The translations under genes were made by a program, and so were the position numbers. Below, one piece after another: positions 7,551 through 23,754 of a stretch of 64,000 nucleotides of DNA (positions within the stretch are counted from its first letter, which is position 1; each line of letters starts with the position of its first letter). Source of the stretch: Constantimarinum furrinae (GTDB lineage Bacteria; Bacteroidota; Bacteroidia; Flavobacteriales; Flavobacteriaceae); the NCBI RefSeq assembly GCF_014295415.1, contig NZ_CP052909.1, positions 1,302,001 to 1,366,000 of the forward strand, in the 5' to 3' direction. The notes beneath the pieces are model-generated. The model ran no database searches and was not told the origin of the DNA. It saw only the letters and a list, made by a program, of their open reading frames with translations.

Positions 7551-7580
7551 TTTAGTGAAGAGTGTGTTTTTTTTAGTGAA
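7551..7580 (-). promoter_or_regulatory. Paired LytTR-type operator upstream of fibre gene 1
   Basis: Two identical plus-strand copies of TTTAGTGAA at 7551-7559 and 7572-7580 start exactly 21 bp apart (9 + 12 bp). LytTR regulators are known to bind two roughly 9-bp direct repeats two helical turns apart. The pair lies between the response-regulator stop codon and the fibre start. Confidence 0.7.
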
Positions 7581-7596
7581 TGACTTTTGTGAAAAT

Positions 7597-8310
7597 TTAA
7601 AGAGAATTCAGTTTTGTAAGTACAGCTACTTTATGTGAAGTACTCAATGGAATTTCTTCTTTATTAATATAAATACTTGAAGTACTTACCGAATCAATTT
7701 TTTTAAGGTTTACCCAATACGATCGATGTGTTTGCACAAAATTGTTAAGATTGAGTAATTCCGATGTTTTTTTTAGGGTATGTGGCACCAAGTATTTTTC
7801 TGAAGCCGTAATCACATAACAATAATTGTCGAATGCCTTTAAATACTTAATACTTGCTTGATTAATTTTATGGATTCGACCTTTCGATTTAAGTAAGATA
7901 AAATCTTCATTGGTTAGCGAAAAATTATGCCAGGCCAATTCAATATTAGAGCGTAAGCCCGCTTCAGTAAAAGGTTTTACTATGAATCCTAACGGTTGTG
8001 TTTCTTTAACTCGTGTAATGGTGTGTGGATCTGTTTGGGAGGTAAGATAGAGGTAAGGAATGTTTCTTTCGTCCAATTGTTTAGCAAGATCTATCCCATC
8101 TTTTACCCCTTCAAGATGTATATCCAATAAAACTAAATTGGGAAGGCTTTTGTCAATAGCAATCAGTGCTTCTTCATACTCATCACTATTGCCAATTACA
8201 TTAAAACCTTGATTAATTAAGGTAGTGGTAATAGTCGCAACAATTAAAGGTTCGTCTTCTACGAGGTAGATATTAAGTGATTTCAAATAAGATAATTTAT
8301 TGTTCAACAT
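7597..8310 (-). CDS. Response regulator, REC-LytTR (copy A)
   Basis: About 237 residues as drawn. The receiver domain has the acidic pocket VEDEP near the N-terminus and the phosphoacceptor Asp63 in LVLLDIHLEG. The LytTR DNA-binding domain follows from about residue 135 (KYLKAFDNYCYVIT, FVQTHRSYWVN). It is closely related to the copy B regulator at 21038-21724; the stretch LGFIVKPFTEAGLRSNIELA is identical in both. The kinase gene lies upstream and fibre gene 1 downstream. The ATG at 8310 touches a likely -7 box; a TTG at 8284-8286 would give 229 residues, match copy B (228) in length and remove the conflict, so the true start may be 8286. Confidence 0.93.
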   Translation of the reverse strand: MLNNKLSYLKSLNIYLVEDEPLIVATITTTLINQGFNVIGNSDEYEEALIAIDKSLPNLVLLDIHLEGVKDGIDLAKQLDERNIPYLYLTSQTDPHTITRVKETQPLGFIVKPFTEAGLRSNIELAWHNFSLTNEDFILLKSKGRIHKINQASIKYLKAFDNYCYVITASEKYLVPHTLKKTSELLNLNNFVQTHRSYWVNLKKIDSVSTSSIYINKEEIPLSTSHKVAVLTKLNSL

Positions 8311-8318
8311 TGAAATTA
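8311..8318 (-). promoter_or_regulatory. Candidate -7 box of response regulator A
   Basis: The minus strand reads TAATTTCA, nearly the same as TATTTTCA found at the same 29-bp distance from the paired sites of response regulator B. It matches TAnnTTTG only partly, and the evidence rests on the copy A/copy B similarity. Confidence 0.35.
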
Positions 8319-8347
8319 CTCGAAGGAATTATGAAGCGTATTAAAGA

Positions 8348-8377
8348 TTTAGTGAATGTAGCTATTTATTTAGTAAA
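8348..8377 (-). promoter_or_regulatory. Paired LytTR-type operator upstream of response regulator A
   Basis: TTTAGTGAA at 8348-8356 and TTTAGTAAA at 8369-8377 start 21 bp apart on the plus strand, in the space between the kinase stop codon and the regulator start. This suggests autoregulation. Confidence 0.7.
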
Positions 8378-8492
8378 TGGAAGCACTGGAAATAAAGAGA
8401 CATGACAAAAGGCTTTAGTTTCGTGGTTCTAGTATCAGAGCTGTTTTGATTCTAATTTCTCAAAGCTCTACCTCTAATTAATTAATAAAGCA

Positions 8493-10283
8493 TCAAAGCT
8501 CATTAAAACGGCGCATGTCTAAAATGGCTATTGTGCCAGTTGATGGAGCTGATTGATAACTGAGTGTCGCTTTTAATTTCTTTGCTAACGATTTTATTAA
8601 TTGAATTCCAAATGAGCTCTCCTTAATTTCGGTAGGAATCCCCACCCCATTATCTTCCACTTGCAATTGTAATGTTTCCCCTATTCTTTTAAGTCGGATA
8701 AGCATCCTGCTTTCTTCGTTAACAGGCTTAAAAGCATGTTTTAATACATTGGTGATCAATTCGTTTAAAATTAGACCCAATGGAGTTATAGTTTCAACGT
8801 CTAGAACCAATGGCTCAACGTCCAAGTTGTAAATAAAAGCATTTCCTTCAAATTGATGACTCTCAAAAATGTCATTGGTAAGATCTGTAAAATATTCTTT
8901 TGTGTTAATTCCTACCAGTTGATCTTTACTATACAATTTTTGATGAATTAATACCATAGAACGCACTCTGTTTTGAGCTTCTTTCATCGCTAATTTTGCT
9001 TTGTTGTCTTCTATGTTTTCAGATTGTAAATAGAGCAGTGAGGACACGATCTGAAAACTATTCTTTACACGATGATGGGTTTCTCTTAAAAGCACATTTT
9101 TTTCATCAACAGTGGCTTCCAATAGCTTCTTTTGTTTCGCTAATTGCTTATTTTTCTTTTGATTTTTAAATAGAAAAAATCCAACTAAAGCAGCTACCAA
9201 TAAACCCGCTAAGGCAAGTAATAAATAAAGTTTCTTTTCATGCGCTGCTTTTTCAGTTTCTAAAGAAAGCACTCTAAGTTGTGCGTCTTTTTTTTCGGTT
9301 TCATACTTTGTTAGTGCTTCGGCCATGTTATGATCTTGCGTTGCCGCTAAAACAGAATCTTTTAACTTTTGTGACTCCATAACAATTTCATAGGCATCCT
9401 TATACTCTTTTTTTTCAGAATAATAGACTGCCAAGGCATTGTAAGACTCAATAAGTTGCTCAACATGATTTATCCTTTTGGCAATAGCGACTCCTCTTTT
9501 TAGTAATGGGAGGGCCTGAGAAAATTGGTTTTGATTAGTATAGGCTATTCCCATTCCAGTATAGGAAACTGCATGTAATAGTGGGATTTGATTTTCAGAA
9601 ACATATAGTTTTGAACGTGAATAAGAAGAAAGTGCTCCAGAGAAATCTTTATTAAAAATTTTTGAATTCCCTTGGTTCATATAGGAAATCCCGGCATTTA
9701 GCGAGTCGCCATTTTTAAGATAAAAACTAATTGCTTTTTCAAGCATTTCATCGGCTTCCAGATACATGCTATGATTCATGTACAAAATAGATAAGTTGTT
9801 ATTTACATTGGCAACCCATCTTTCGTCTTCTATAGATGATGCAATGTCTCGCGATAGTAGGTAGTATTTCTCAGCATTTTTGAAATCATCCGTTTTTATA
9901 AAGCAAGAGGCAAGATTATTATACAATTGGGCAAGTTCAGAGGATGGGATGGATGCATCCAACGTTCGTAAAGACTCTAAATAATAAGAAATAGCTTCAT
10001 TATAATCTTCTGTAACATAGCTAGCCATTCCTTTGAGATTTAAAGACTTGGCATAATATTCTTGAACATCAATAAGCTTTGAAATTGAATCGTATACCCT
10101 GGCATATTCAATAAGGTTTTGAGGGCTTGATCGCCATTCTAGATCAACAATTTCATCAAGAAAATTAAGTTTTTCAATATCTGAAGAAATCTTGTCCAAT
10201 CGAACCATAACGTCATTAGTCTGAGATAAAGAAATGAAGGATGCCAAGATTAAGCATAGACAAGAAAAGATGGGCTTTGCCAT
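8493..10283 (-). CDS. TPR-containing sensor histidine kinase, HisKA_2 type (copy A)
   Basis: 596 residues. An N-terminal signal peptide (about 1-20) is followed by tandem tetratricopeptide-like helices (about 55-320), which should therefore be periplasmic. One transmembrane helix (about 351-372) and a basic coiled linker lead to a HisKA_2 dimerisation domain with ETHHRVKNSFQIVSSLL (phospho-His at 403 or 404) and a HATPase with N-box LNELITNVLKHAF and G-box VEDNGVGIP. It should phosphorylate the LytTR regulator encoded just downstream. The signal is unknown; TPR sensors usually read a protein partner. It is paralogous to the kinase at 21817-23754, with near-identical kinase cores and more diverged TPR regions. 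It has its own paired LytTR-type site upstream. Confidence 0.92.
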   Translation of the reverse strand: MAKPIFSCLCLILASFISLSQTNDVMVRLDKISSDIEKLNFLDEIVDLEWRSSPQNLIEYARVYDSISKLIDVQEYYAKSLNLKGMASYVTEDYNEAISYYLESLRTLDASIPSSELAQLYNNLASCFIKTDDFKNAEKYYLLSRDIASSIEDERWVANVNNNLSILYMNHSMYLEADEMLEKAISFYLKNGDSLNAGISYMNQGNSKIFNKDFSGALSSYSRSKLYVSENQIPLLHAVSYTGMGIAYTNQNQFSQALPLLKRGVAIAKRINHVEQLIESYNALAVYYSEKKEYKDAYEIVMESQKLKDSVLAATQDHNMAEALTKYETEKKDAQLRVLSLETEKAAHEKKLYLLLALAGLLVAALVGFFLFKNQKKNKQLAKQKKLLEATVDEKNVLLRETHHRVKNSFQIVSSLLYLQSENIEDNKAKLAMKEAQNRVRSMVLIHQKLYSKDQLVGINTKEYFTDLTNDIFESHQFEGNAFIYNLDVEPLVLDVETITPLGLILNELITNVLKHAFKPVNEESRMLIRLKRIGETLQLQVEDNGVGIPTEIKESSFGIQLIKSLAKKLKATLSYQSAPSTGTIAILDMRRFNEL

Positions 10284-10315
10284 TTTAATCTGGTTGAAAT
10301 GTTAAGTGCTATTAC

Positions 10316-10323
10316 AAAACTTA
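10316..10323 (-). promoter_or_regulatory. Candidate -7 box of sensor kinase A
   Basis: The minus strand reads TAAGTTTT (TAnnTTTG with one mismatch), 27 bp from the paired LytTR-type sites. No -33 TTG is seen. Confidence 0.4.
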
Positions 10324-10350
10324 TTAAATATAGGTTTTAAACTAAAAGTT

Positions 10351-10380
10351 TTGAGTGAATGAGCTATTTTTTTTAGTGAG
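10351..10380 (-). promoter_or_regulatory. Paired LytTR-type operator upstream of sensor kinase A
   Basis: TTGAGTGAA at 10351-10359 and TTTAGTGAG at 10372-10380 start 21 bp apart on the plus strand. Each differs from TTTAGTGAA by one base. Confidence 0.65.
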
Positions 10381-10403
10381 TTTAAATTTTTTATATAAAA
10401 AAA

Positions 10404-10427
10404 AGACCGTTTCTAAAAAAACGGTCC
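10404..10427 (-). terminator. Intrinsic terminator of the cytochrome gene
   Basis: Perfect 8-bp stem (GACCGTTT at 10405-10412, AAACGGTC at 10419-10426). On the minus strand it is followed by nine T. It lies about 30 bp after the cytochrome stop codon and upstream of the kinase operator, which insulates the two units. Confidence 0.8.
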
Positions 10428-10456
10428 TGAATGTACTGTGAAAAAAACGTATGTCG

Positions 10457-11056
10457 CTATTGAATCTGATCGGGAGGAATATAAGCGGGAACGACATTTT
10501 CAATGGGATCGATGGACATAAGATATTTATAAATTGCTTTTAAGTCGTCCTCTTTAAGCTCGGCAAAGGATTGCCAGGGCATGGGAGGCATTATTGGCCG
10601 GGTACCCTCCATTCCTTTATACTTTCCTTCGGTCATTGCTTTTTTAAATTGCGCGAAACTCCATTTTCCAATTCCCGTATCATCGGGCGTTAGATTGGCC
10701 CCAAAACTAACCCCCCAGGGTCCAACTGCCGCAGTGAGGTCACTGTGAAAAAGAATCCAGCCACCGGGTGTTATTTGGGATTTGTCTATGGGCGGAAGCT
10801 TTGCATCTGCCGGATGACCCATTAACCATCGGTCCAAGTCGGAAACGGGACCATTTTCGGTCATTTTCTTAGGCGTGTGACAATGATCACAGCCTATTGC
10901 CTTCACGAGGTATTCACCTTTGTCGATCCACTGTGCTTCAGTAAGACCCTTTTTTGAAGGTTCCTTTTTCGGTGAATAATCCTCTTTTTTGTCTTGACAG
11001 CCCATCATTCCTATGATGGCTATCATCATAACTGTTTTAAATATTAATGGTTTCAT
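10457..11056 (-). CDS. Mono-haem c-type cytochrome lipoprotein
   Basis: 199 residues. A short signal peptide ends in a lipobox (MMGCQDK), then a charged linker and a single haem-binding CxxCH (GCDHCH, about residues 55-60). The Met-rich segment PIMPPMPW near residue 155 probably supplies the sixth iron ligand. The C-terminal helix LKAIYKYLMSI is typical of cytochrome c folds. It should act as an envelope-anchored electron carrier, but its partner is not visible. It is followed by a strong terminator and lies just downstream of fibre gene 2 (23 bp), so it may be read through from that promoter. If so, it would belong to the same regulon. Confidence 0.85.
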   Translation of the reverse strand: MKPLIFKTVMMIAIIGMMGCQDKKEDYSPKKEPSKKGLTEAQWIDKGEYLVKAIGCDHCHTPKKMTENGPVSDLDRWLMGHPADAKLPPIDKSQITPGGWILFHSDLTAAVGPWGVSFGANLTPDDTGIGKWSFAQFKKAMTEGKYKGMEGTRPIMPPMPWQSFAELKEDDLKAIYKYLMSIDPIENVVPAYIPPDQIQ

Positions 11057-11079
11057 AAAAAATATTTAGTATATGAAAG

Positions 11080-13782
11080 TTAACGAATTTGTTCCACTTC
11101 AAACCAAGTTTCTACACTATTTTGATCGACCAAAAACCCTGAAATGGAGCTATTTGCAAAAATTTCTACGTACTGTGAAGCAGCCAGAGCGACTACCACA
11201 TTAATGTCTCTGTGAACCACCCCATTTCCTTGATGTGCATACAACGATTGTTTAACCAAACTTCCGTTTACATAAATACCAATACCAAAATCGGTTACAG
11301 ATGTGGAGGTACCTATGCTGTGCCAACTCGCACTAATGCGATAATATCCGGCAGAGGGAGCTACGAAGCGATTAGTCGTGGTATTAAAATTACTTTGAGC
11401 ATCGAAAACAATAGTGTTGAATGGTAATTTTTCATACCCGGTTCCGCCATGACTATAAAAGCTACTTAGATTAGCTTGTGACAGCCCAAACGAAGAAATA
11501 TCGGGAGAAGGATCTGCCCATCGGGCATTTCCGTTGGCATCACTTCGCAATACTCTTCCTGCAGCTTCGGTCCCATCGGTATATTGAAAATTGTCGTCTA
11601 CTCTAAGATTATCGCCCACATACACATTCCCGGATCCATTGCCAGCCGTACCATTTCCAAAATATCCTGCCCAATTGTTGGTGCCACCGGTTGCAGAGGC
11701 ATATAAACCGTAGTTGTTGGTGCCGTTTCCGGTGACTCTGGCTTCCACGGCTGTATTGGTGGTACTATTGGCAGAATTTATGCCGGATACTGCAAAAGAA
11801 GATGCTGAGGTTCCAGAGGTATTCACAAGAAAGGATCCGCCGTAGACATCTCCGGATAAATTGTTGGACGCAGTCACCAAAATACCGGAAGAGGCCCCGA
11901 TGGAAGAATTTCCAGTATAGTCAATATTTACACCTCTATAGTCACTTCCGGAATATTCGATATCCAGTGTGTAGTTAGGGTTGGTGTTGCCTATACCTAC
12001 ATTTCCTGAAACACCGGAATATTGGTCATTGCCCGAAATCGTCCAATCTGAATCTGTAGAGTCCAACGAAGAAAGATCTACGGTGCGGGGAGGAACACCG
12101 TCGTTCTCTATTTCCAATGTTAAAATATTGGTGCCATTGTTAAAATTAAATGTGTCAATGGTTTGCTCATCGGTATCGGTAAATACGTTTGAAGCATTTG
12201 TCCAGGATGCATTTCCGTTTATATCTGAACTAAGCACCCGGTTCGCCCCTTCATTTCCATCGCTGTATTGGAAGCTCCCCACCAGATCCAGGGTTGCTGA
12301 AGGATTGGTTTCCCCAATTCCGACATTTCCGTCCTCGTCAATTCGCATATGTTCAACCAATTGCAAGGATGAATTGCCCGTATAGAACGCCAGCTGTCCG
12401 TAATAACTAGAAGACAGGGTACCTAACGCCTCTATTTTAGCTACTCCTTCACCAAAACTCTGTAAACGGTTTCCGAATATGATCTGACCAATGGTACTGT
12501 TGGTGTTATTTTGTTTTCCCAGAATTTCTAAAGAGGCATAATCGTTATTGCTTGCGGAGTTATAAGCTTCAAGAGTAAGCGTTCTGCTGGCTCCCGGAAA
12601 ATAGACCGGGTCATTCGTGCCAATTCCCACATTCCCTTCATCGTTTACATAAAAACCTACTTCTCCCAATCCGTTTTTAACTTCCAAACCGGAAGTTGCC
12701 GATGAAGTCCCGTCGCCTTCGATACTTAATTTACTGGAAGGATTGGTATCACCTATTCCTACATTTCCTGTAACCGAAGAATATTGGTCATTACCGTTAA
12801 GTGTCCAGTCTGTATCATCGAAAATTGAGGATGGATCGGTAAAGGATAGTTGCCCCGAACCATCGGTGCTAAGTACTTGATTGGACGAACCATCGGTAAC
12901 CGGAAAGGAGTATCCCGTGGTCGAGGGATTTCCCATATGTATCAGACCATTAACCCGCAATAAATTATGTACATAAACATTACCGCTTCCGGCGTTTCCA
13001 TTGCCAAAATAACCTGCCCAATTGGTACTGGATCCTCCATAAGCGTAGGCTTCCAGTCCAATATTGTTAACACCTCCTGTGGTTGCCGAAAAGCTTCCTC
13101 CTGTATTGTTATTTCCGTTGGAAGCTATACCAACGACCCCTGCATTATCAGATCCTGAGCCTGCTGTCTGTCCTGCCACACCAATATTGACCGTAGCATT
13201 GGCGTTATTGACACCATTTACTGCCGTAGATAAAAAACTGTTTCCCGAATTGTTTAGACCAAAATATCCCCCATAAATATAACTGCCCGCATTGGTGCCA
13301 CTTCCTAATACTCTTAAGGCTGCCGCATTGGTATCGGTTCCGGAATAACTGTATTCCAGTTGTGCTCCCTGAAGGTTAGAGCCAGTGTATTGCATCTGAA
13401 ATTTCGCGGCATTTGGAGTGGTTCCAATACCTACATTTCCGGTATTTCCTGAGATAAGATGTTGCCCAGAGCTTGTCCAGTCGGTATCTGAAACCCCAAC
13501 AGCGATCCAGCTGGTGCTGTTTTGATCCCAATAGTAAAATCCTTTAGCCGGTGTTCCGTTCCCTGTTGCAAAAATTAACATCCCATCTTGAGCCGAAGCA
13601 GGGTTCGTGCCGGGGAAATTATCAATGCGCGGAATCAATATTCCATCGGTGTTAGAAGGTGATGCAATACTACTCGATGTAATATCCAAAGAGGCATTGG
13701 GAGAAACTGTTCCAATTCCCACTTGCGAAAAGCTCATTTGGTAAGAAAGGGTAAGACCTAAAAAGAACGCTATATATTTCAT
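11080..13782 (-). CDS. Secreted fibre protein 2 with C-terminal C1q-like domain
   Basis: 900 residues, the longest fibre here. A signal peptide ends in MSFSQ and is followed by the shared module VGIGTVSPNASLDI and LIPRIDNFPGTNPASAQDGM. The body is built from repeated modules such as GNVGIGTxxP, WTxSGNDQYSxVxGNVGIG and NWAGYFGNGNAGSGNVYV, which look like phage tail-fibre/trimeric-stalk repeats. The last 130 residues form a C1q-like jelly roll (NRFVAPSAGYYRISASW ... VETWFEVEQIR). No anchor is visible. It has no adjacent kinase/regulator pair, but its promoter carries the same paired LytTR-type sites as copy A, so it is probably a third target of the same regulator. Confidence 0.8.
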   Translation of the reverse strand: MKYIAFFLGLTLSYQMSFSQVGIGTVSPNASLDITSSSIASPSNTDGILIPRIDNFPGTNPASAQDGMLIFATGNGTPAKGFYYWDQNSTSWIAVGVSDTDWTSSGQHLISGNTGNVGIGTTPNAAKFQMQYTGSNLQGAQLEYSYSGTDTNAAALRVLGSGTNAGSYIYGGYFGLNNSGNSFLSTAVNGVNNANATVNIGVAGQTAGSGSDNAGVVGIASNGNNNTGGSFSATTGGVNNIGLEAYAYGGSSTNWAGYFGNGNAGSGNVYVHNLLRVNGLIHMGNPSTTGYSFPVTDGSSNQVLSTDGSGQLSFTDPSSIFDDTDWTLNGNDQYSSVTGNVGIGDTNPSSKLSIEGDGTSSATSGLEVKNGLGEVGFYVNDEGNVGIGTNDPVYFPGASRTLTLEAYNSASNNDYASLEILGKQNNTNSTIGQIIFGNRLQSFGEGVAKIEALGTLSSSYYGQLAFYTGNSSLQLVEHMRIDEDGNVGIGETNPSATLDLVGSFQYSDGNEGANRVLSSDINGNASWTNASNVFTDTDEQTIDTFNFNNGTNILTLEIENDGVPPRTVDLSSLDSTDSDWTISGNDQYSGVSGNVGIGNTNPNYTLDIEYSGSDYRGVNIDYTGNSSIGASSGILVTASNNLSGDVYGGSFLVNTSGTSASSFAVSGINSANSTTNTAVEARVTGNGTNNYGLYASATGGTNNWAGYFGNGTAGNGSGNVYVGDNLRVDDNFQYTDGTEAAGRVLRSDANGNARWADPSPDISSFGLSQANLSSFYSHGGTGYEKLPFNTIVFDAQSNFNTTTNRFVAPSAGYYRISASWHSIGTSTSVTDFGIGIYVNGSLVKQSLYAHQGNGVVHRDINVVVALAASQYVEIFANSSISGFLVDQNSVETWFEVEQIR

Positions 13783-13858
13783 CGTGAATAATTTAATAGT
13801 GTTGCCACAGCGGACTTCAGGTAGAATCGGGACAAAAAAAGGAGACGCTTTGCTTTTT

Positions 13859-13866
13859 CAAATGTA
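13859..13866 (-). promoter_or_regulatory. -7 box of fibre gene 2
   Basis: The minus strand reads TACATTTG, a perfect TAnnTTTG match, 28 bp from the paired LytTR-type sites. No -33 TTG occurs at the usual distance, which fits an activator-dependent promoter. Confidence 0.6.
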
Positions 13867-13894
13867 GCGAGACACATAGAAGTTGTTAATATTT

Positions 13895-13924
13895 TTTAGT
13901 GAAACGGGGATTTTTTTTAGTGAA
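13895..13924 (-). promoter_or_regulatory. Paired LytTR-type operator upstream of fibre gene 2
   Basis: Two perfect TTTAGTGAA copies at 13895-13903 and 13916-13924 start 21 bp apart on the plus strand. The 292-bp gap also holds the divergent promoter of the isoaspartyl peptidase gene, which I could not place precisely. Confidence 0.72.
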
Positions 13925-14074
13925 ATTTAAAATTCCTCGATCAATTAATTTCTTAGATTTATATAAAGGACTTCAGTAGAGAATGGCTTCAATTATTTTA
14001 ATAATCACACTTTTTAGTTTGTTATCGAAGTGATTTAAAAGGCAATTCGTATTTTTCGGCTCTAATATTTTAAG

Positions 14075-15007
14075 ATGACCAAATTCTCAATTGCCATTCA
14101 CGGTGGGGCGGGAACCCTTGTTAAAGGTTTAATGACCCAAGAGTTAGAAACTCAGTATAAGGAAGCACTTCGAAACGCACTAGACGCCGGCTATGCTGTC
14201 TTAAATGGAGGGGGTACATCACTGGATGCTGTTGAAACTTCAGTAATGTTGTTAGAAGACAGCCCGCTGTTTAATGCGGGTAAGGGAGCTGTTTTTACAG
14301 CCGATGGAACCCACGAGATGGATGCTGCGATCATGGAGGGTAAAAACCTAAACGCCGGGGCCGTAACATTGATCACCGGCATTAAAAATCCGGTACGCCT
14401 TGCACGGGATGTAATGGAAAAAAGCGATCATGTATTTTTAGCTGGTGACGGAGCAATGCGCTTTGCAAAAGTTAATGGATATACCCTCGAAAATGAAGAC
14501 TACTTTTATGATGAAGTCCGATATCAACAATGGCAGGGAATTAAGGATAGCAAGACTTTTCAACTAGACCACAGCGTAAAAAAGGATGGGAAATTTGGGA
14601 CTGTGGGGGCAGTGGCCTGTGATGTACACGGCAATATTGCTGCGGCTACTTCTACCGGAGGAATGACCAATAAACGATGGGGGCGCGTTGGAGACAGCCC
14701 AATGATAGGCGCCGGGAACTATGCCAACAATAGAACCTGCGCCGTTAGTTGTACCGGTAGCGGTGAATATTTTATACGAGGAGTAGTTGCCTACGACGTT
14801 TCCTGTTTAATGGAGTATAAAGGAATGACATTGCAGGAAGCGGCTTCTGAAGTGATTCAAAACCGAGTATTAAAAATTGGAGGCGACGGCGGACTCATAG
14901 CCGTTGATGCCAATGCCAATATAGCCATGCCATTTAATACCGAAGGCATGTACCGGGCATTTGCCACTTCCGAAGGAAAAAGAGGACTTGGAATCTATAA
15001 GGATTGA
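14075..15007 (+). CDS. iaaA: Isoaspartyl peptidase / L-asparaginase (Ntn-hydrolase)
   Basis: 310 residues of the plant-type asparaginase family. The enzyme is made as a precursor and cuts itself before the catalytic Thr, here Thr176 in KFGTVGAVACD. The N-terminal IHGGAGT and the substrate-binding TSTGGMTNKRWGRVGDSP are intact. It hydrolyses beta-aspartyl dipeptides and asparagine. There is no signal peptide, so it is cytoplasmic. The next two genes encode cyanophycinase and cyanophycin synthetase. Together they suggest that its main substrate is beta-Asp-Arg released from cyanophycin, yielding Asp and Arg. Its 3' end overlaps the convergent cyanophycinase gene by 13 bp. Confidence 0.93.
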   Translation: MTKFSIAIHGGAGTLVKGLMTQELETQYKEALRNALDAGYAVLNGGGTSLDAVETSVMLLEDSPLFNAGKGAVFTADGTHEMDAAIMEGKNLNAGAVTLITGIKNPVRLARDVMEKSDHVFLAGDGAMRFAKVNGYTLENEDYFYDEVRYQQWQGIKDSKTFQLDHSVKKDGKFGTVGAVACDVHGNIAAATSTGGMTNKRWGRVGDSPMIGAGNYANNRTCAVSCTGSGEYFIRGVVAYDVSCLMEYKGMTLQEAASEVIQNRVLKIGGDGGLIAVDANANIAMPFNTEGMYRAFATSEGKRGLGIYKD

Positions 15008-15867
15008 GGCTCAACAACCGGAATTCCCAAAGGTGATACCTTAAGTTTATTCTTTTTAATATTGAAACGATCCCCATTGGCCAAGATATGAGTCTTTAAA
15101 TTATTTAGTGACATTGGAGATCCAACAGCAACACTATCTTGATTGTTGTGCTTGAGTTTTCGAGGGTCGAATAATATGACCATGCCGCTTCCTATCACTT
15201 CCACCATATTGCAGTTCTTAATTACAAGTCCTGTATCTTCGGCCAGTCCAATTCCTATAAGTTTTGGAAATTTGGCGACAGCTTCCGCAAGTCGGCCAAA
15301 GCGTCCACGCCTTATAAAATGCGAATCGATGATAAGGTTTGGAATAAAACTCATTCCTTCTCCCATACCTACGGCACCTTTTATAAACGATTCTTTACTG
15401 CTTCCGCCCGTGATCATTTCTTTAGACATGCACATGGCACCGGCGCTGGTTCCGGCGATCACAAAGGATTCATTTTTATAACGTTCCATCATGATCTTAT
15501 GTAAGGTCGTACCGCCAATTTTTCGAGTAATATTAGATTGGTTTCCTCCAGAAAACATTACACAATCCGCCTTTTTCATGAGTTCGATAAATTCGGGATC
15601 TTCAGACTGTTTACGCTTGCGTATATCCAGGACATGAAGGTTTGTGCATCCGAGTTTCTGAAATGCCTGTATATAATTTTGGCCTACCTCTTCGGGAATA
15701 CTCGATGCCGTTGGGATGATAAGGATCGTAGCATCTTTTCCACCACTTTCTTTTACCACTCTTGCGAGGATGCCATCTTCGATAAATTCCAGATGATAGA
15801 TCTCACTGGTCTCTATTCCTTTGTCTTCATTTCCACCAATTGGGATCAAGGTTCCTTTTATGTCCAT
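14995..15867 (-). CDS. cphB: Cyanophycinase (peptidase S51)
   Basis: 290 residues. The serine nucleophile lies in the elbow GTSAGAMCMSKEM, and the preceding FSGGNQSNITR strand-loop is typical of S51 cyanophycinases. The N-terminal GTLIPIGGNEDKG also matches the family. The enzyme cuts cyanophycin, the poly-Asp backbone with Arg side chains, into beta-Asp-Arg dipeptides. No signal peptide is seen, so it should act on intracellular granules. It is convergent with the isoaspartyl peptidase gene and divergent from cyanophycin synthetase, so breakdown and synthesis can be controlled separately. Confidence 0.95.
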   Translation of the reverse strand: MDIKGTLIPIGGNEDKGIETSEIYHLEFIEDGILARVVKESGGKDATILIIPTASSIPEEVGQNYIQAFQKLGCTNLHVLDIRKRKQSEDPEFIELMKKADCVMFSGGNQSNITRKIGGTTLHKIMMERYKNESFVIAGTSAGAMCMSKEMITGGSSKESFIKGAVGMGEGMSFIPNLIIDSHFIRRGRFGRLAEAVAKFPKLIGIGLAEDTGLVIKNCNMVEVIGSGMVILFDPRKLKHNNQDSVAVGSPMSLNNLKTHILANGDRFNIKKNKLKVSPLGIPVVEPQSL

Positions 15868-15884
15868 AGGTATTTTATTGGGAG

Positions 15885-15892
15885 CAAAAATA
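15885..15892 (-). promoter_or_regulatory. -7 box of cphB
   Basis: The minus strand reads TATTTTTG, a perfect TAnnTTTG match, about 18 bp upstream of the cphB ATG. The gap is shared with the divergent cphA promoter; AT-rich TATATTTA matches at 15917 and 15936 may serve cphA. Confidence 0.5.
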
Positions 15893-15960
15893 GGAGTTTT
15901 GTTCTAAAAAAAATTATATATTTATGATCTTTCGATATATTTAAACTAAAGCCAATCAAC

Positions 15961-18597
15961 ATGAGGATTAGAGAAATAAATGCAATGCGCGGGCCTAATT
16001 ACTGGTCGGTACGCCGACATAAGTTAATAGTAATGGTCCTCGACCTCGAAGAGATGGAAGATTTCCCATCTAATAAAGTTGATGGATTTAGTGATCGTCT
16101 CAAGCAAATGTTTCCTACCATGTTTTCTCACCGCTGTTCAGTTGGAGAGCCCGGGGGTTTTTTTCAACGGGTTGATGAAGGTACCTGGATGGGTCATATA
16201 ATTGAACATATAGCGCTGGAGATCCAAACGCTGGCAGGTATGGATACGGGCTTCGGAAGGACCCGAGATTATGGGGAACACGGGGTTTATAATGTGGTGT
16301 TCAGTTATATCGAAGAAACTGTTGGACGTTTTGCTGCTGAAGCTTCAGTACGCATTTGTGAAGCCTTGATCGCCGGAGAAGAATACGATCTGGAATCGGA
16401 TATTCAAACCATGCGTGAATTGAGAGAGGCCGAACGTTTAGGACCCAGCACAGGTTCGATAGTTGAAGAAGCAGCCAGTAGGGGCATTCCATGGATACGA
16501 TTAAACAAATATTCTCTATGTCAGTTAGGTTATGGCGCCAATCAGAAAAGAATACAGGCCACCGTAACCAGTGAGACCAGCAGTATTGGAGTAGAACTTG
16601 CCTGTGATAAGGAAGATACAAAATACCTGCTCGAGCAGGCCGAAGTAGAAGTGCCCAGAGGGGATATTATTTCGAAGGAAAGTAGTTTGGAAGAAGCTTG
16701 TCGTTATGTAGGCTTTCCATTGGTAATTAAACCTATAGACGGTAATCACGGCAGAGGAATTACGGTTGACATTCAAAATTACGACGAAGCATTAGTTGCT
16801 TTTAATGCGGCAAAAGAAGTTTCTCGTCGTGTGATCGTTGAAAAATTTGTTACCGGAGAAGACTATAGATTACTGGTGATAAATAACGTACTCGTTGCCG
16901 CAGCAAAAAGAACCCCTGCTCATGTTATTGGAGACGGAAGATCTACTGTGGAAGAGTTGGTCAATAAGGTTAATGAAGATCCCAGAAGAGGGTATGGGCA
17001 TGAGAATGTGCTTACCATGATAACTATTAATGATCTTACTAAGACCATTATAAAAGATGCCGGATATACGGTAGATTCTGTGTTGCCGGAAGGTGAGCGC
17101 CTTATCTTAAAGGATACAGCCAACTTAAGCACGGGAGGTACTGCCGAAGATGTAACGGATATTGTTCATCCGGCCAATGTTTCCATGGCAGAGCGTATTT
17201 CAAAGATTATCGATCTCGATATTTGCGGCATCGATATTATGACAGACGATATTAGCAAACCACTTTCTGAAACCGGAGGAGCCGTCCTTGAAGTAAATGC
17301 GGGACCAGGATTTAGAATGCATCTGGCACCCACAACCGGGCTGCCCAGAAATGTAGCGGCACCTGTAGTCGACAAACTCTTTCCTCAGAAAGGGGATACC
17401 GGAAGAATACCTATTGTAGCTATCACAGGTACTAATGGAAAAACTACAACAAGTAGACTAATTGCCCATATGGCTAAAATGAAGGGCTATCGGGTTGGAT
17501 ATACAACCAGTGATGGAGTTTATATTCAAAACCGGTTGCTAATGAAGGGAGATTGTACGGGTCCAGCGAGTGCCGAGTTTGTTCTGAAGGATCCAACAGT
17601 AAATTTTGCTGTACTCGAATGTGCCCGTGGAGGGTTACTTCGCGCCGGACTCGGATTTGGAAATTGCGATGTGGCTGTGGTGACCAATGTTGCGGCAGAT
17701 CATTTAGGTTTGAAAGGTATTCACACTATAGAACAATTGGCAAAAGTAAAAGGTGTTGTTCCCGAAACAGTACTCCCGGACGGATATGCAATACTCAATG
17801 CAGACGATGACCTTGTTTACGATATGCGCCGTGGTATAAATTGCAATCTGGCGCTTTTTTCAATGGATGAGAACAATCCGAGAATACAGGCATTACAGCG
17901 TATTGGTGGAATCACAGCCGTTTATGAAAACGGTTATGTAACTATCTGTAAGGGCTCCTGGAAGATGCGAATTATGAAAGCCGAGAACATCCCGCTTACC
18001 TATGGAGGAAAGGCAGAATTTATGATCCAGAATGTATTGGCTGCTGTGATTGCTGCAAATGTACGTGGTATTAGCATAGAGGATATGAAAGCGGGTCTGG
18101 AGACATTTATTCCTTCAGCCTCACAAACCCCAGGTCGTCTAAATTTGTTCGAGTTTGATAATTTCAAGATCTTACTGGACTATGCTCATAACCCGGCAGG
18201 GATGCGTGCCCTTCAGAAATTTTCTGATAAATTGGAATGTACGGTAAAAGTAGGGATCATTGCGGGAATTGGTGATCGAAGAATTGAGGATAATAACGAA
18301 ATGGGAGCTATCGCCGCCGAAATGTTCGATGAGATCATTATTCGTCAGGATAAGCGATTACGTGGTAAGACAGAAGAGGAACTAATTAATATGCTACATG
18401 ATGGAATTAAAAGTAAAGATCCAAACAAAAAGACTACGATCATTCCTTCCGAAAGAGAAGCGATCACTTATGCAGTAAACAATGCTCAAAAAGGATCTCT
18501 TATTATATTATGTAGTGATGTAATTCCAGATGCCTTGGATCTGGTTACGAGATTTAAAGAACAAGAAGCGAACGGAGAAAAGGTGTTTGCTGATTAA
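15961..18597 (+). CDS. cphA: Cyanophycin synthetase
   Basis: 878 residues, the usual length for CphA. The N-terminal domain (about 1-160) is followed by an ATP-grasp domain (about 215-475; FPLVIKPIDGNHGRGITVDI, EVNAGPGFRMHL), which adds Asp to the backbone. A Mur-ligase-like domain follows, with P-loop AITGTNGKTTTSRL at about residues 486-499 and later LDYAHNPAGM, which adds Arg to each Asp side chain. All expected ATP-binding motifs are present. The product is a nitrogen-, carbon- and energy-storage polymer. With the two neighbouring hydrolases the complete make-and-recycle pathway is encoded within 4.5 kb. Confidence 0.97.
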   Translation: MRIREINAMRGPNYWSVRRHKLIVMVLDLEEMEDFPSNKVDGFSDRLKQMFPTMFSHRCSVGEPGGFFQRVDEGTWMGHIIEHIALEIQTLAGMDTGFGRTRDYGEHGVYNVVFSYIEETVGRFAAEASVRICEALIAGEEYDLESDIQTMRELREAERLGPSTGSIVEEAASRGIPWIRLNKYSLCQLGYGANQKRIQATVTSETSSIGVELACDKEDTKYLLEQAEVEVPRGDIISKESSLEEACRYVGFPLVIKPIDGNHGRGITVDIQNYDEALVAFNAAKEVSRRVIVEKFVTGEDYRLLVINNVLVAAAKRTPAHVIGDGRSTVEELVNKVNEDPRRGYGHENVLTMITINDLTKTIIKDAGYTVDSVLPEGERLILKDTANLSTGGTAEDVTDIVHPANVSMAERISKIIDLDICGIDIMTDDISKPLSETGGAVLEVNAGPGFRMHLAPTTGLPRNVAAPVVDKLFPQKGDTGRIPIVAITGTNGKTTTSRLIAHMAKMKGYRVGYTTSDGVYIQNRLLMKGDCTGPASAEFVLKDPTVNFAVLECARGGLLRAGLGFGNCDVAVVTNVAADHLGLKGIHTIEQLAKVKGVVPETVLPDGYAILNADDDLVYDMRRGINCNLALFSMDENNPRIQALQRIGGITAVYENGYVTICKGSWKMRIMKAENIPLTYGGKAEFMIQNVLAAVIAANVRGISIEDMKAGLETFIPSASQTPGRLNLFEFDNFKILLDYAHNPAGMRALQKFSDKLECTVKVGIIAGIGDRRIEDNNEMGAIAAEMFDEIIIRQDKRLRGKTEEELINMLHDGIKSKDPNKKTTIIPSEREAITYAVNNAQKGSLIILCSDVIPDALDLVTRFKEQEANGEKVFAD

Positions 18598-18650
18598 TCC
18601 ATTTATTCCGATTCTGGTCTTATTTGAAGGATCAGGTTTCAGGAAAATTT

Positions 18651-20807
18651 CTATTCAACTTGGGTTATTTCAAATTGAAAGTAGGGCTCTTGCCCAACTA
18701 CATTAATGGTAACTGTCCCGAAGGGGGAGCTATTGTGTGCATAGATTTCAACCGTATCTGAAGCATTCAGAGACAACAAACTTTCTACGTATATTGATCT
18801 TTCCGCGTTGGTTCCGTTGCTGGCTATACTATAAGGGGAGCCGTTTACATAGATCGCTATTTTGTTCACCACAGAACTGGTAACTCTCATCCTGGCATTT
18901 ACTTGATAATAACCGGCGGTCGTGGCTGTAAAAGCATTTGTGGAGGTGTCAAACTCGTTATTACTATCAAAGGATTCTATATCGAAGGGAAGTTTTTGCC
19001 AGGTCGATAATGGTATCGACTGATTACTGCTTAAAGTTACCCGAACCCTCGATAATGAGCCGGAGCCACTACCATTTTCCCAGCTTAAAGTACCGGAACC
19101 GTTCGTCGTTAAAACCTGGCCGTTAGAACCGTCAGATGTCGGGAAAGTATAGGCTTCATTAAAAGTTACGGCACCAGTATTAAAGACTTCAAGTGCATTG
19201 GATCTAGCGCTAGCTGAGGTTCCGTTTCCTACTACAAACGATCTGTTTGTTCCTGATTTGTTGTAGGAGCCAACCGCCATTTCATTTGTGCCGGTAGCAA
19301 GTGTACCGTTGCCCATTGCCGTCGAGCCATAACCGGAAGCAACAGAGACCAAACCTGATGCAAAACTGTAACTTCCACTGGCGATAGTTCCGGCATTCAC
19401 TGCAAAGGATCGATCGCCAATATTCGAATCATCCCAGGCTGTAGAATTAAATATTCCACCACTTCCTACGCTTCCTGCCCTAAAAGCTGCTTTATCCGGA
19501 TAAAAGAACATTCGATTTCCTGCGCCACTTACACCCAATGTGCGACCGGCATTAAAAGCTCCCGTAACAATAAGGCCATCCAACCCTGCAATAGTGACCG
19601 CGCCGTTGTCTGCCGTTATGGTTTTACCTGCCCCGGAGCCACCTTCATCATAAGCGGAGTCGAGCGTATTTTGAGTATCGCCATCTCCGGTGATTGTTTG
19701 AAAAGTTATATTTCCCGAACCATCAGTAGTCATTACTTGACCATTTGTTCCATCTAAAGTGGGGAAAGAATAACCGGTTGTGGCCGGATTTCCAATTTGA
19801 AACTCGCTATTAGTGCGTAAAATATTCGTGTCAAACTCACCATAAATAAGGGCATTATTCGCATCGGCATTAGAACTTTCAATATAAAGTTTGTTACTTC
19901 CTGTTTCATTAAAACCGGCATTCGACCCAATAAATATATTAGAACTTCCGGTACTATTACCTCTTCCCGCACGATAACCTACGGCCACATTGTCGGATCC
20001 GGTAGAATTTAAGGTAAGGGATTCCAGACCGTGAGCTGTATTCCTGGCACCGGAAGAATTCGAATACAGCGATCTGTATCCACTCGCTGTATTACTTCCC
20101 GCCGTGTTAAAAAACAATGCCTGAACACCATTGGCCGTATTATATCCTCCAGAGATATTATTGTTTAACGCTCCATGCCCGGTTGCTGTATTATTGATTC
20201 CGGCTGTATTTGAAAATAAGGCATGATATCCCAATCCCGTATTGCTATTACCACCAAGGTTGGCTCTTAGTGCACTTAAACCCACCGCGGTGTTTTCAGA
20301 CCCGGTTGTATTTGTTTCCAGCGCTAAATAGCCTACAGCGGTGTTGGACTGTCCTGTGCTGTTATTTTCTAAAGCTTCAAAACCCACTCCAACATTTCTG
20401 TTATCACTGCTGTCATCGGCTGCTCCTGCGTTTATTCCCAAAAACACCGAAGAACCATTTTGAGTTCCATCACTATCGCTTTTTCCGTCGGAAAGATCAT
20501 CCAATTTCTGAGCTCCTGTTCCCCCAACAGATTTCCAAGACGATGTTCCCTGGTCCCAGTAATAAAATCCTTCGGAAGGAGTTCCCAAACCGGTCACAAA
20601 GACCATCATCCCATCCTGTGAAGCTGTGGGATCTGTTGCCGGGAAGTTATCTATTCGCGGAATTAAAATTCCATCGGTGTTAGCGGGAGTACTTACATTT
20701 CCGGAAGAAATATCCAGAGTAGCTTGGGGATTTGTATTATTAATCCCTACCTGAGCGTGAACTGCGAAGCCTAAAAATAAAATTGATAGTATAACGGACC
20801 TTTTCAT
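18651..20807 (-). CDS. Secreted fibre protein 3 (copy B) with C1q-like C-terminus
   Basis: About 718 residues from the ATG at 20807; a GTG eight codons earlier (20831) would extend the signal peptide unnaturally. A signal peptide (MKRSVILSILFLGFAVHAQ) and VGINNTNPQATLDI module are followed by roughly 24-residue repeats (NTAVGYLALETNTTGSE type, about residues 135-300). A segment FFYPDKAAFRAG shared with fibre 1 (FFYPRKSAFRAG) leads into YadA-like SFASGLVSVASGYGSTAMG repeats. The C-terminal C1q-like domain contains NAFTATTAGYYQVNARM and ends FQFEITQVE. It is the last gene of the copy B unit. Unlike fibres 1 and 2 it has no clear paired LytTR-type site; a plain -7 box is present. Confidence 0.8.
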   Translation of the reverse strand: MKRSVILSILFLGFAVHAQVGINNTNPQATLDISSGNVSTPANTDGILIPRIDNFPATDPTASQDGMMVFVTGLGTPSEGFYYWDQGTSSWKSVGGTGAQKLDDLSDGKSDSDGTQNGSSVFLGINAGAADDSSDNRNVGVGFEALENNSTGQSNTAVGYLALETNTTGSENTAVGLSALRANLGGNSNTGLGYHALFSNTAGINNTATGHGALNNNISGGYNTANGVQALFFNTAGSNTASGYRSLYSNSSGARNTAHGLESLTLNSTGSDNVAVGYRAGRGNSTGSSNIFIGSNAGFNETGSNKLYIESSNADANNALIYGEFDTNILRTNSEFQIGNPATTGYSFPTLDGTNGQVMTTDGSGNITFQTITGDGDTQNTLDSAYDEGGSGAGKTITADNGAVTIAGLDGLIVTGAFNAGRTLGVSGAGNRMFFYPDKAAFRAGSVGSGGIFNSTAWDDSNIGDRSFAVNAGTIASGSYSFASGLVSVASGYGSTAMGNGTLATGTNEMAVGSYNKSGTNRSFVVGNGTSASARSNALEVFNTGAVTFNEAYTFPTSDGSNGQVLTTNGSGTLSWENGSGSGSLSRVRVTLSSNQSIPLSTWQKLPFDIESFDSNNEFDTSTNAFTATTAGYYQVNARMRVTSSVVNKIAIYVNGSPYSIASNGTNAERSIYVESLLSLNASDTVEIYAHNSSPFGTVTINVVGQEPYFQFEITQVE

Positions 20808-20875
20808 AGTTGTTGTTTTTACAAAATCCACAACTAAGTAGGAAAGTTCAATTGTGGTAGAAGAATTGGAGACTT

Positions 20876-20883
20876 CAAATTTA
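20876..20883 (-). promoter_or_regulatory. -7 box of fibre gene 3
   Basis: The minus strand reads TAAATTTG, a perfect TAnnTTTG match. No TTTAGTGAA pair lies 26-29 bp upstream; only a single imperfect TTTAGAAAA occurs at 20923. Confidence 0.45.
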
Positions 20884-21037
20884 AGAAGGCGGTAAAGTTG
20901 AAACCTCTATGAATTCATACATTTTAGAAAATCCATGATTTCTTAGGCGTTATTATAAGCCTTAAAGTTGCCAGGGGGATCGAAGAAAAATAGGGGTAAA
21001 CAGAATGGTCTTTACTAGTAAGAGTAATAAATTAGGC

Positions 21038-21724
21038 TTAGGATCGTAGTTTAAGTTTTATGTCCTCTTTATGAGAGGCGGTTAAGGGGACGGTATGTCC
21101 TGACACCACCAAACTGTCAATGGTCATCTTTGACACCTTACGAAGATTAACTATAAACGACCTGTGCGTTTTTGCAAAATGTACCGGATTTAAGCTTTCA
21201 GAAGTAAATTTCAGTGTTTTAGGAACCAAGAAGCTATGTGCTTCAGTAATTACATAGCAATAGTTGTCAAAAGCTTTCAGATATAGGATGTCTTCTTGAT
21301 TTAATTTATAGGTCTCTCCTTCCGATTTAATTATTAAAAATTCATCTTTGGTGAGTGAAAAATTGTGCCATGCCAATTCTATATTACTACGTAAGCCCGC
21401 TTCAGTAAAAGGTTTTACAATAAATCCCAATGGCTTCGTTTCTTTTACTCTGCTTATGGTAGAAGGATCTGTTTGAGAAGTGAGATACAAATAGGGAATA
21501 TACCTTTTGTCTAAAGCTGTGGCCAAGTCGATACCGTCCTTTTCCCCTTCCAACTGTATATCCACTAAAACAAGATCCGGCTTGGATGTTGAAATTTCAG
21601 TTAGTGCTTCCTCATATGTTTCTACATCACCAATCACATAAAATCCCTGTTTTTTTAGCGCAGTTTCAATAGTTGCGGCGATTAGCGGTTCGTCTTCTAC
21701 AATTAAAATGCTTAGTTTTTGCAT
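21038..21724 (-). CDS. Response regulator, REC-LytTR (copy B)
   Basis: 228 residues. The receiver domain (LIVEDEPLIA; phosphoacceptor Asp55 in LVLVDIQLEG) and the C-terminal LytTR domain (LYLKAFDNYCYVIT, FAKTHRSFIVN) align without gaps to copy A at 7597-8310. The two regulators share almost the whole receiver output face and the start of the DNA-binding domain, so they may recognise the same operators. The kinase partner is encoded 92 bp upstream. The upstream gap carries a paired TTTAGTGAA-type site, suggesting autoregulation or cross-regulation by copy A. Confidence 0.94.
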   Translation of the reverse strand: MQKLSILIVEDEPLIAATIETALKKQGFYVIGDVETYEEALTEISTSKPDLVLVDIQLEGEKDGIDLATALDKRYIPYLYLTSQTDPSTISRVKETKPLGFIVKPFTEAGLRSNIELAWHNFSLTKDEFLIIKSEGETYKLNQEDILYLKAFDNYCYVITEAHSFLVPKTLKFTSESLNPVHFAKTHRSFIVNLRKVSKMTIDSLVVSGHTVPLTASHKEDIKLKLRS

Positions 21725-21739
21725 GGAAAATAATATTTC

Positions 21740-21747
21740 TGAAAATA
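21740..21747 (-). promoter_or_regulatory. Candidate -7 box of response regulator B
   Basis: The minus strand reads TATTTTCA, 29 bp from the paired operator, matching the copy A element TAATTTCA at the same distance. It matches TAnnTTTG only partly. Confidence 0.35.
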
Positions 21748-21776
21748 CTTAAAATAGGATTTTGGATGTGCTAATT

Positions 21777-21806
21777 TTTAGTGAATGCTCCTAATTATTA
21801 AGTGAA
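21777..21806 (-). promoter_or_regulatory. Paired LytTR-type operator upstream of response regulator B
   Basis: TTTAGTGAA at 21777-21785 and TTAAGTGAA at 21798-21806 start 21 bp apart on the plus strand. Confidence 0.68.
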
Positions 21807-21816
21807 CCGTTACGTC

Positions 21817-23754
21817 TTATAAAACTTTGAACCGAGATATGCTTAAGGTTGCTACAGTTCCATGGGGAACACTTTGTGAAAAATTCAGTGTTGCCTTTAA
21901 CTTTTTAGCTAACGCTCTCATCAGTTTAATTCCGAATGAACTTTCGCGTATTTTTTCCGGCATGCCTTTTCCGTTATCACTTACCTTTAATATCAAGTGG
22001 TCGCCTTCTCTTCCAAAATCAATATGCATTTTTTGAGAAGTCTTGGTTTCCACAAATGCGTGTTTTAGGACATTGGTTATGAGCTCGTTTAAAATTAAAC
22101 CTACCGGTGTTATTGTTTCTATGTCGAGTACCATAGGTTGTACGTTTAATTCATAGCTCATCTCATTCTTTCGCGAATGATGACTTTCGAAAATGTCTTT
22201 AGTGAGATCGCTGAAGTATTCTTTGGTATCTATGCCAACCAATTGATCCTTATTATACAGTTTTTGGTGAATCAATACCATAGATCGTACTCTGTTTTGG
22301 GCTTCACGAATTGCCAATTGTGCCTCTTGGTCCTCAATGTTTTCAGATTGGAGATACAAGAGGGAAGAGACGATCTGAAAACTGTTCTTTACTCTGTGGT
22401 GCGTTTCCTTAAGTAAAACATTTTTTTCATCTAGAGTGGATTCCAATAGTTTCTTTTGTTGTGCCAGCAGTTTGTTCTTTTTCCTGTTCCTAACAAAATA
22501 AAAAGTTAGAATGGATAGTACAACAGCAATAGAACCAAGAATGAGGTATAGTAATTTTTGAGCTGCCGCTTGTTTATCGAGTTCTCTGTCTTTACGTTCT
22601 GTATCGTACCTTACCTCATAATCTGCTATTCGAGATAACATTTCGCTCGTACGAATACTATCTTCCATAACCTTCTGATTTTTTAATGCCTCATACGCTT
22701 TTTTATAATCTCCGGCAGCTTCGTATAGCTTGGTAAGCAAGGCTTTTTCGCGGGAATGACCAATGAGATAATTTACTTTTTCCAGTCTTTCAATCGTTCT
22801 TTCCATTATTGGAATGGCCTCTTCCGGGGTGCCACGATCGATCATGGCTTGCGCCAACACAGAGGCTGAGGTTGAATATGCATTGTAATTATTTAAACTG
22901 TCACTGGCTGCGATCACCTTTTTGAGATGCGAAATACCTTCAGGCGTATTGGCTTCCAAAAGAACCGATTCTACCGGGAAGTGATAATCTGGGGTCTTTA
23001 ATTCTTTTGCCTTATAATATTCTATCAGCATTTCGGCGTAATGCGCCTGCTTAACGTGATCCTTCACTTCATTAAAATGATCGGTAATTAAATAAAGAAG
23101 AAAACCACGCGCATGATGTTCGGGATATTTGGACATTTCAACCCACGCTTTTTCGTAGTACATGCTTTTTAAGTCCGAATTTCCTAGGATGTATTGAATA
23201 TCTCCTTTTCGCTGATAGACTTGCCATAACATTGGACCTAAGTCCTCTAGATTTTCTAAGGCTATTTTTTCAGCTTCATTGACATAAAAAGTTGCTGAAT
23301 CTACAACCGTTGTATTGACATAATGACTCGAAATTAAATGGTAGAAGTCATGTATCATTACATGGTTATTTAATTCCTTGGCCCATTTAAGCCCTTGAAA
23401 TCTTATTTCTTTGGATCTCTCGATCAAGCCATTATTGACCAAATTGGGACCGTAACTTAGGTAGGCATACATTCTTAGCTCTTTTTCCGAAGCATATTCA
23501 GTATCCAAATAGTGATAAAGAGGCAGTGCCGCTTTAGGTTGCATCCTCGACATTTTTTGCGTAAGCTTTCCTATCTCCATCTTCTTCGCATCAGATTTCA
23601 TGCTTTTAGATACCGCAACGATGCTATCGATGTATGTTTCTGAAATTTCTTGAGCAGAAAAGTGGGTAGGATTGAAACACCAAAGGAAGAGCAACAGTAT
23701 TAGCCGTAGCTTCCATGTATTAACACATATGGAAGTGCCTTTAATGTATTTCAC
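21817..23754 (-). CDS. TPR-containing sensor histidine kinase, HisKA_2 type (copy B)
   Basis: 645 residues from a GTG start, the only start giving a signal peptide (hydrophobic about residues 16-34). A helical TPR-like region (about 45-375) precedes one transmembrane helix (about 401-421) and a basic linker. HisKA_2 follows with ETHHRVKNSFQIVSSLL (His452/453) and HATPase boxes LNELITNVLKHAF and VSDNGKGMP. The kinase core is nearly identical to copy A (NVLLxETHHRVKNSFQIVSS), while the TPR sensor half is only weakly similar. The two copies therefore probably sense different partners while feeding similar regulators. Only a degenerate version of the paired operator is seen upstream (23794 and 23815). 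Confidence 0.92.
   Translation of the reverse strand: MKYIKGTSICVNTWKLRLILLLFLWCFNPTHFSAQEISETYIDSIVAVSKSMKSDAKKMEIGKLTQKMSRMQPKAALPLYHYLDTEYASEKELRMYAYLSYGPNLVNNGLIERSKEIRFQGLKWAKELNNHVMIHDFYHLISSHYVNTTVVDSATFYVNEAEKIALENLEDLGPMLWQVYQRKGDIQYILGNSDLKSMYYEKAWVEMSKYPEHHARGFLLYLITDHFNEVKDHVKQAHYAEMLIEYYKAKELKTPDYHFPVESVLLEANTPEGISHLKKVIAASDSLNNYNAYSTSASVLAQAMIDRGTPEEAIPIMERTIERLEKVNYLIGHSREKALLTKLYEAAGDYKKAYEALKNQKVMEDSIRTSEMLSRIADYEVRYDTERKDRELDKQAAAQKLLYLILGSIAVVLSILTFYFVRNRKKNKLLAQQKKLLESTLDEKNVLLKETHHRVKNSFQIVSSLLYLQSENIEDQEAQLAIREAQNRVRSMVLIHQKLYNKDQLVGIDTKEYFSDLTKDIFESHHSRKNEMSYELNVQPMVLDIETITPVGLILNELITNVLKHAFVETKTSQKMHIDFGREGDHLILKVSDNGKGMPEKIRESSFGIKLMRALAKKLKATLNFSQSVPHGTVATLSISRFKVL

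Follow-up and report, generated by a model that had tools for sequence, protein, structure and literature searches.

Gene content of the cluster

The window analyzed here, a stretch of 64,000 nucleotides from Constantimarinum furrinae (Flavobacteriaceae; contig NZ_CP052909.1, positions 1,302,001 to 1,366,000 of the forward strand), carries a minus-strand cluster of fiber, response regulator, and sensor kinase genes (Table 1). Regulators A and B, which are 63% identical, both matched Pfam PF00072 and PF04397 above cut-off and thus consist of a receiver followed by a LytTR domain. The motif of the LytTR domain has been worded FhRhHRS (excerpt of PMC4227749); it reads FVQTHRS in A and FAKTHRS in B, with F and HRS kept and a third residue that is not R. 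Kinases A and B were 51% identical over 360 C-terminal residues, with no strong match N-terminal of that region, and inspection by eye revealed a common N-terminal block in fibers 1 to 3. The genome encodes eight LytTR genes in all. A PDB sequence search with regulator B gave matches, of which the 60 listed out of 173 all lay in the receiver domain or ended just past it; therefore, the matches listed are silent on DNA binding.

Regulator A probably starts at the TTG at 8286 rather than at the ATG at 8310, because the candidate -7 box described below touches this ATG and the corresponding TTG serves as the start in several relatives; the leader length of the relatives was a further basis for this prediction. 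On the same strand as fiber 2 and 23 bases after it, a cytochrome c gene was found (10457-11056), with a terminator-like hairpin (10403-10428) beyond its end. Since the gene lies close behind fiber 2 and before the hairpin, it may be cotranscribed with fiber 2. The region between fibers 2 and 3 (14075-18597) holds asparaginase-family (PF01112), S51 peptidase, and cyanophycin-synthetase-like genes, and looks like cyanophycin metabolism. Nothing but one tRNA was detected in the window when known RNA families were searched. A sigma-70 promoter and terminator scan of the window stayed at shuffle level (48 versus 50.0 and 15 versus 15.5, respectively), and was used solely for pointing at a hairpin.

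Table 1. Genes, putative operator pairs, and predicted -7 boxes of the cluster (window positions)
Feature	Position	Strand	Remarks
Fiber 1	5611..7416	minus	601 aa; YadA head repeats
Candidate -7 box, fiber 1	7515..7522	minus	28 nt from site; alternative 7517-7524, 26 nt
Operator pair, fiber 1	7551..7580	minus	0 mismatches; between regulator A end and fiber 1 start
Response regulator A	7597..8310	minus	receiver and LytTR domain
Candidate -7 box, regulator A	8311..8318	minus	TAATTTCA, 4/6 letters of TAnnTTTG; 29 nt from site; touches first ATG
Operator pair, regulator A	8348..8377	minus	1 mismatch; before regulator A
Sensor kinase A	8493..10283	minus	TPR repeats, HisKA_2, HATPase_c
Candidate -7 box, kinase A	10316..10323	minus	27 nt from site
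Operator pair, kinase A	10351..10380	minus	2 mismatches; before kinase A
Fiber 2	11080..13782	minus	900 aa; weak C1q-like end, below Pfam cut-off
-7 box, fiber 2	13859..13866	minus	TACATTTG, full consensus; 28 nt from site
Operator pair, fiber 2	13895..13924	minus	0 mismatches; before fiber 2
Fiber 3	18651..20831	minus	726 aa; downstream of regulator B; weak C1q-like end, below Pfam cut-off
Response regulator B	21038..21724	minus	receiver and LytTR domain
Candidate -7 box, regulator B	21740..21747	minus	TATTTTCA, 4/6 letters of TAnnTTTG; 29 nt from site
Operator pair, regulator B	21777..21806	minus	1 mismatch; between kinase B end and regulator B start
Sensor kinase B	21817..23754	minus	HisKA_2, HATPase_c

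Five 21-bp-phased repeat pairs lie in one cluster of the genome

An earlier note on this DNA had claimed that two 9-mers starting 21 bp apart precede five genes of the cluster, and a pattern scan of the window confirmed all five pairs in place (Table 1). With TTTAGTGAA-N12-TTTAGTGAA as the pattern, the window gave five matches at up to 3 mismatches, compared with a mean of 0.18 and a maximum of 2 in 100 dinucleotide-preserving shuffles of the window. The same five pairs ranked top in a weight-matrix scan of the window that allowed start-to-start gaps of 8 to 39. As the target genes are on the minus strand, the functional site is TTCACTAAA-N12-TTCACTAAA. All five sites had the layout of a LytTR operator, with repeats of 9 nt that are 12 nt apart and 21 nt from start to start; the pairs bound by LytTR proteins mostly consist of 9-11-nt repeats with 11-13 nt between them (excerpt of PMC4847170).

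The whole-genome scan that the note had proposed (2,987,299 bases, one contig) returned only these five sites at up to 2 mismatches, all inside this one cluster, and none for the reversed control pattern. At exactly 3 mismatches, 9 extra matches occurred in the genome, which we regard as background because the reversed control had 14 at up to 3 mismatches. Neither kinase B nor fiber 3 was preceded by a site of its own beyond chance; we infer that fiber 3 may be read from the site and promoter of regulator B.

The fibers, regulators, and kinases of the window form paralogous pairs or triples, as would be expected if the repeats were shared merely through duplication of fiber and regulator genes. 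Such an origin, or plain chance, is nevertheless hardly credible: the shuffles never reached five matches, the sequence between the repeats and in front of the box varies from site to site, and, as described below, regulators A and B are not sisters and the sites are conserved outside the window.

Sites recur beside related regulators

A search was performed with both regulators, and the 80 best loci were scanned on both strands with the window consensus; Flavobacteriaceae, among them Altibacter, Psychroserpens, Winogradskyella, Algibacter, and Aequorivita, supplied the top ones. Forty-six further sites at up to 2 mismatches were found in 29 of these 80 loci, and all 46 were on the strand of the regulator, with 0 on the opposite strand. 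Ten of them lay before a regulator gene and 27 behind one, at a distance of no more than about 120 nt; the other 9 were before or between further genes of the cluster. The repeat spacing was equally constrained: in L023 to L065, 44 pairs at up to 2 mismatches had a spacing of 21, and other spacings from 15 to 30 gave at most 4.

The regulators carrying these sites belonged largely to one lineage. In a tree of 42 regulators (40 from the best 80 loci, plus A and B), a clade of 30 was recovered (support 100/99), and a site was present in the locus for 28 of its members; L032 and L065, also in the clade, had no site in the locus. Regulator B grouped with L030 and L034 (100/96), but A with L023, L032, and L065 (95/88). 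A and B thus do not form a sister pair, which points to one operator used by two lineages. Outside the clade, a 2-mismatch site was located just 3′ of the regulator in L053, L074, and Marivirga (L071), and 3-mismatch sites occurred in Imperialibacter (L063) and a Cyclobacteriaceae MAG (L061); the locus scan gave nothing clear in several other distant relatives. Three half-sites in 21-bp phase were observed at L047:7695-7745 and L074:2922-2972, and also in L122 and L131; such triple arrays may bind more than two subunits.

Sites stand at a nearly fixed distance from a predicted -7 box

The 5 sites of the window and the 46 of the relatives gave a set of 51. An A-tract followed the first repeat, with A at position 11 in 49 of the 51 sites and at positions 12 and 13 in 42 each. 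The earlier note had also placed a candidate -7 box 26-29 nt from each pair, and this geometry was borne out in the window (Table 1) and in the larger set. A predicted TAnnTTTG-like box (at least 5/6 letters) started 28-29 bases downstream of 39 of the 51 sites, whereas neighboring offset pairs from 40 to 130, taken as a control, gave a mean of 1.6 and a maximum of 6. Nine of the other 12 sites belonged to the regulators' own promoters, including those of A and B. The looser form TA-N1/2-TT was seen at all 12 regulator sites and at 37 of the 39 others, a count without a control of its own.

By the numbering used for Flavobacterium johnsoniae, in which the T of the box is at -12 (excerpt of PMC6847099), the last base of the proximal repeat falls at about -41 or -42. 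Full TAnnTTTG was present in only 4 of 48 boxes and G at -10 in 21 of 48; these counts leave aside 3 of the 51 sites, which lack TAnnTT at offsets 27-29. In the F. johnsoniae promoter study, G at -10 was virtually absent (excerpt of PMC6847099). Such a small number of full-consensus boxes is as expected of promoters that need help. A TTG at -33, which the earlier note had found missing at the usual distance from the three boxes that it checked, was indeed absent at the exact spacing of 19 in all 51 sites. As evidence, however, this absence carries no weight and was dropped: at spacers of 17-23, TTG occurred in 7 of the 39 sites with a clear box versus 5.2 expected. At the position where transcription is expected to begin, the non-regulator targets of L025, L033, L035, L036, L038, L039, L044, L045, and L058 shared a GCTATTAAT-like stretch, which could be a start-site or leader element.

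The position of the sites also bears on the direction of control. Activators usually sit upstream of the core promoter. The same operators and regulators could instead repress the five promoters, with release or displacement upon a signal; position is what tells the two directions apart here, and an AgrA site downstream of one promoter (bsaA) reportedly mediates repression (excerpt of PMC4227749). Repression is nonetheless unlikely, given that the sites stop short of the expected start by about 41-42 bases and lie upstream of the core promoter, and that the boxes are mostly off-consensus. Activation is the direction that we infer from site position.

Sites co-occur with one regulator clade across the family

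Sixteen of 199 family genomes, including that of the window, encode a close regulator (E up to 1e-55). Twenty-five genomes contained a site at up to 1 mismatch, namely, 13 of those 16 and 12 of the 183 others (Fisher p 2.9e-11), and exact sites were present in 8 of the 16 and 0 of the 183 (Fisher p 2.4e-10). Without the window's own genome, these fractions were 12 of 15 and 7 of 15, respectively. Raw site numbers at up to 1 mismatch across the 199 genomes were not above those of the reversed pattern (35 versus 27 matches, in 25 versus 25 genomes), so the association with the regulator alone was used as evidence; the reversed pattern had matches in 2 of the 16 close-regulator genomes. Furthermore, a site was found within about 1.5 kb of 15 of 18 regulator genes in family genomes, A and B included, at up to 3 mismatches, and of 14 at up to 2; for the remaining 3, none lay in that range even at up to 3 mismatches. 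This genome set and the 80 loci overlap, as judged from recurring site sequences, and several species seem to be in both. Related genomes contributed many of the sites, which therefore do not count as independent. In G039 and G117, sites distant from the regulator gene (L142 and L144) preceded genes for secreted-looking proteins that have an NDEC motif close to the N terminus, and the regulons of these two genomes may reach beyond the cluster.

The co-occurrence also speaks to which protein binds. The sites might be bound by just one of A and B, or by another of the genome's LytTR proteins, with a neighboring pair that acts elsewhere. LytTR sites have a common layout, the genome offers eight such genes, and a site at up to 1 mismatch is found in genomes without a close regulator, among which are the sources of L122 and L131, where triple half-sites are accompanied by a box. 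Against this stands that the sites precede both the A and B genes, that exact sites are confined to genomes with this regulator clade (8 of 8), and that the six remaining LytTR proteins, compared by eye, are unlike A and B in the receiver and around the HRS motif. We therefore judge a different binder to be slightly less probable even than repression.

Varied, often surface-type proteins are encoded behind the sites

The motif had been described in the earlier note as defining a likely self-regulating fiber regulon. "Fiber" proved too narrow, since the downstream gene varies in relatives. Even in this genome, where the N terminus of fiber 2 matched 20 places, 8 of them with E < 1e-20, a site was present only at fibers 1 and 2, that is, at two of the eight strong fiber paralogs; several targets in relatives are not fibers. 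By eye, a fiber-type N terminus was recognized in the protein behind 17 of the 36 non-regulator sites of relatives.

We ran Pfam on 20 downstream proteins of our choice from these 36 sites. Matches above cut-off were obtained for endosialidase chaperone (L026 and L037), tail collar (L025, L035, and L039), YadA head (L037), C1q (L024), leucine-rich proteins with a T9SS sorting tail (L028 and L046), other T9SS-tailed proteins (L029 and L046), DUF285 (L048 and L071), and receptor-L (L040). Below cut-off were YadA head plus C1q (L030), beta-helix (L035 and L074), a T9SS tail in a fragment (L053), and an SMR-transporter-like small membrane protein (L042, Aequorivita). The downstream proteins of L023 and L044 had no Pfam match. 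Signal peptides and a secreted look were judged by eye.

An exact site with a -7 box but no sizeable same-strand gene downstream was observed at L033:10136-10270, L058:11498-11640, and L120:1300-1535 (minus strand), followed by a terminator-like hairpin after about 80 nt (L033 and L058) or about 170 nt (L120). These are candidates for regulated short RNAs, unless the hairpin belongs to a convergent gene.

The variety of genes behind the repeats among relatives would also fit recombination or exchange points between surface-protein genes in place of operators. This is very improbable, however, as the repeats are also found in front of kinase A and the regulator genes, and their distance to the promoter box is fixed, which exchange alone does not require.

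Discussion

The sequence data make it likely that the TTCACTAAA-N12-TTCACTAAA pairs serve as operators for a single clade of LytTR response regulators, to which A and B belong, and that these regulators activate the linked genes with positive feedback. The LytTR reading of the earlier note is supported by repeat length, spacing, position relative to the core promoter, the sites before regulator genes, and the co-occurrence with one LytTR clade. A layout suited to self-regulation is present at the sequence level before A and B and before 10 regulators in relatives. Mechanistically, kinases A and B would phosphorylate their neighboring regulators, and both A and B would bind these sites, with two LytTR domains, separated by two helical turns, on the same face of the DNA (about -70 to -62 and -49 to -41). 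The bound regulators would help RNA polymerase onto weak core promoters. The active regulators would thus increase expression of their own genes, of kinase A, and of the surface fibers linked to them, closing a positive feedback loop, and two sensors may share one operator.

AgrA of Staphylococcus aureus is likewise a LytTR response regulator, but its targets and its kinase type differ from those here. An AgrA dimer occupies a pair of direct repeats upstream of its target promoters, among them that of its own operon (excerpt of PMC4227749); the proximal repeat is centered at about -60 for AgrA but, by our own reckoning, at about -45 here. Closer in layout are the LytTR Regulatory Systems HdrRM and BrsRM of Streptococcus mutans, with two 9-bp direct repeats, in most cases separated by 12 bp, that lie directly upstream of the core promoter and before the regulator's own operon; LytTR systems can self-activate through such repeats, which give positive feedback in S. 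mutans (excerpt of PMC6193735). S. mutans repeats such as ACCACTTAT have CACT and one A in common with TTCACTAAA (excerpt of PMC6193735). As far as that excerpt goes, the S. mutans partner is an inhibitory membrane protein, the repeats stand 4-11 bp upstream of a -35 hexamer, and bacteriocins are among the targets, whereas here the neighbors are HisKA_2 histidine kinases, the repeats stand 28-29 nt upstream of a Bacteroidota -7 box, and surface fibers are among the targets. YpdB of Escherichia coli is again a LytTR response regulator with a direct repeat pair and a very small target set, but differs in its repeat (GGCATTTCAT), its LytS-type kinase, and its single target yhjX, with no surface fibers (excerpt of PMC4847170).

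Among open-licence PMC papers, searched mostly by title and the start of the abstract, we found none that described a LytTR operator or regulon in Flavobacteriaceae and none that combined LytTR, Flavobacteriaceae, and a binding site; the literature matches listed for the bare 9-mer look unrelated. One predicted LytTR repeat of Bacteroides thetaiotaomicron is in print (table in PMC6193735, excerpt).

A broader idea, which we put forward tentatively and with somewhat less than even confidence, is that of a portable flavobacterial surface-protein switch. Kinase, LytTR regulator, and fixed-geometry promoter would stay constant, and the gene behind them would be exchanged among unrelated, mostly secreted-looking proteins, such as fibers, leucine-rich or other T9SS-tailed proteins, beta-helices, and collar proteins, and in some genomes perhaps for short RNAs. 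Two coexisting, diverged kinase-regulator pairs, such as those of this cluster, would read the same operator and so bring two signals onto one surface program.

A motif at a fixed distance from the box, kept over several genera, allows candidate targets to be listed genome by genome and opens the regulation of surface fibers, on which little work has been done, to testing. The findings also point to a constant switch behind which different surface genes are put, and to a single operator on which two kinase-regulator pairs may converge.
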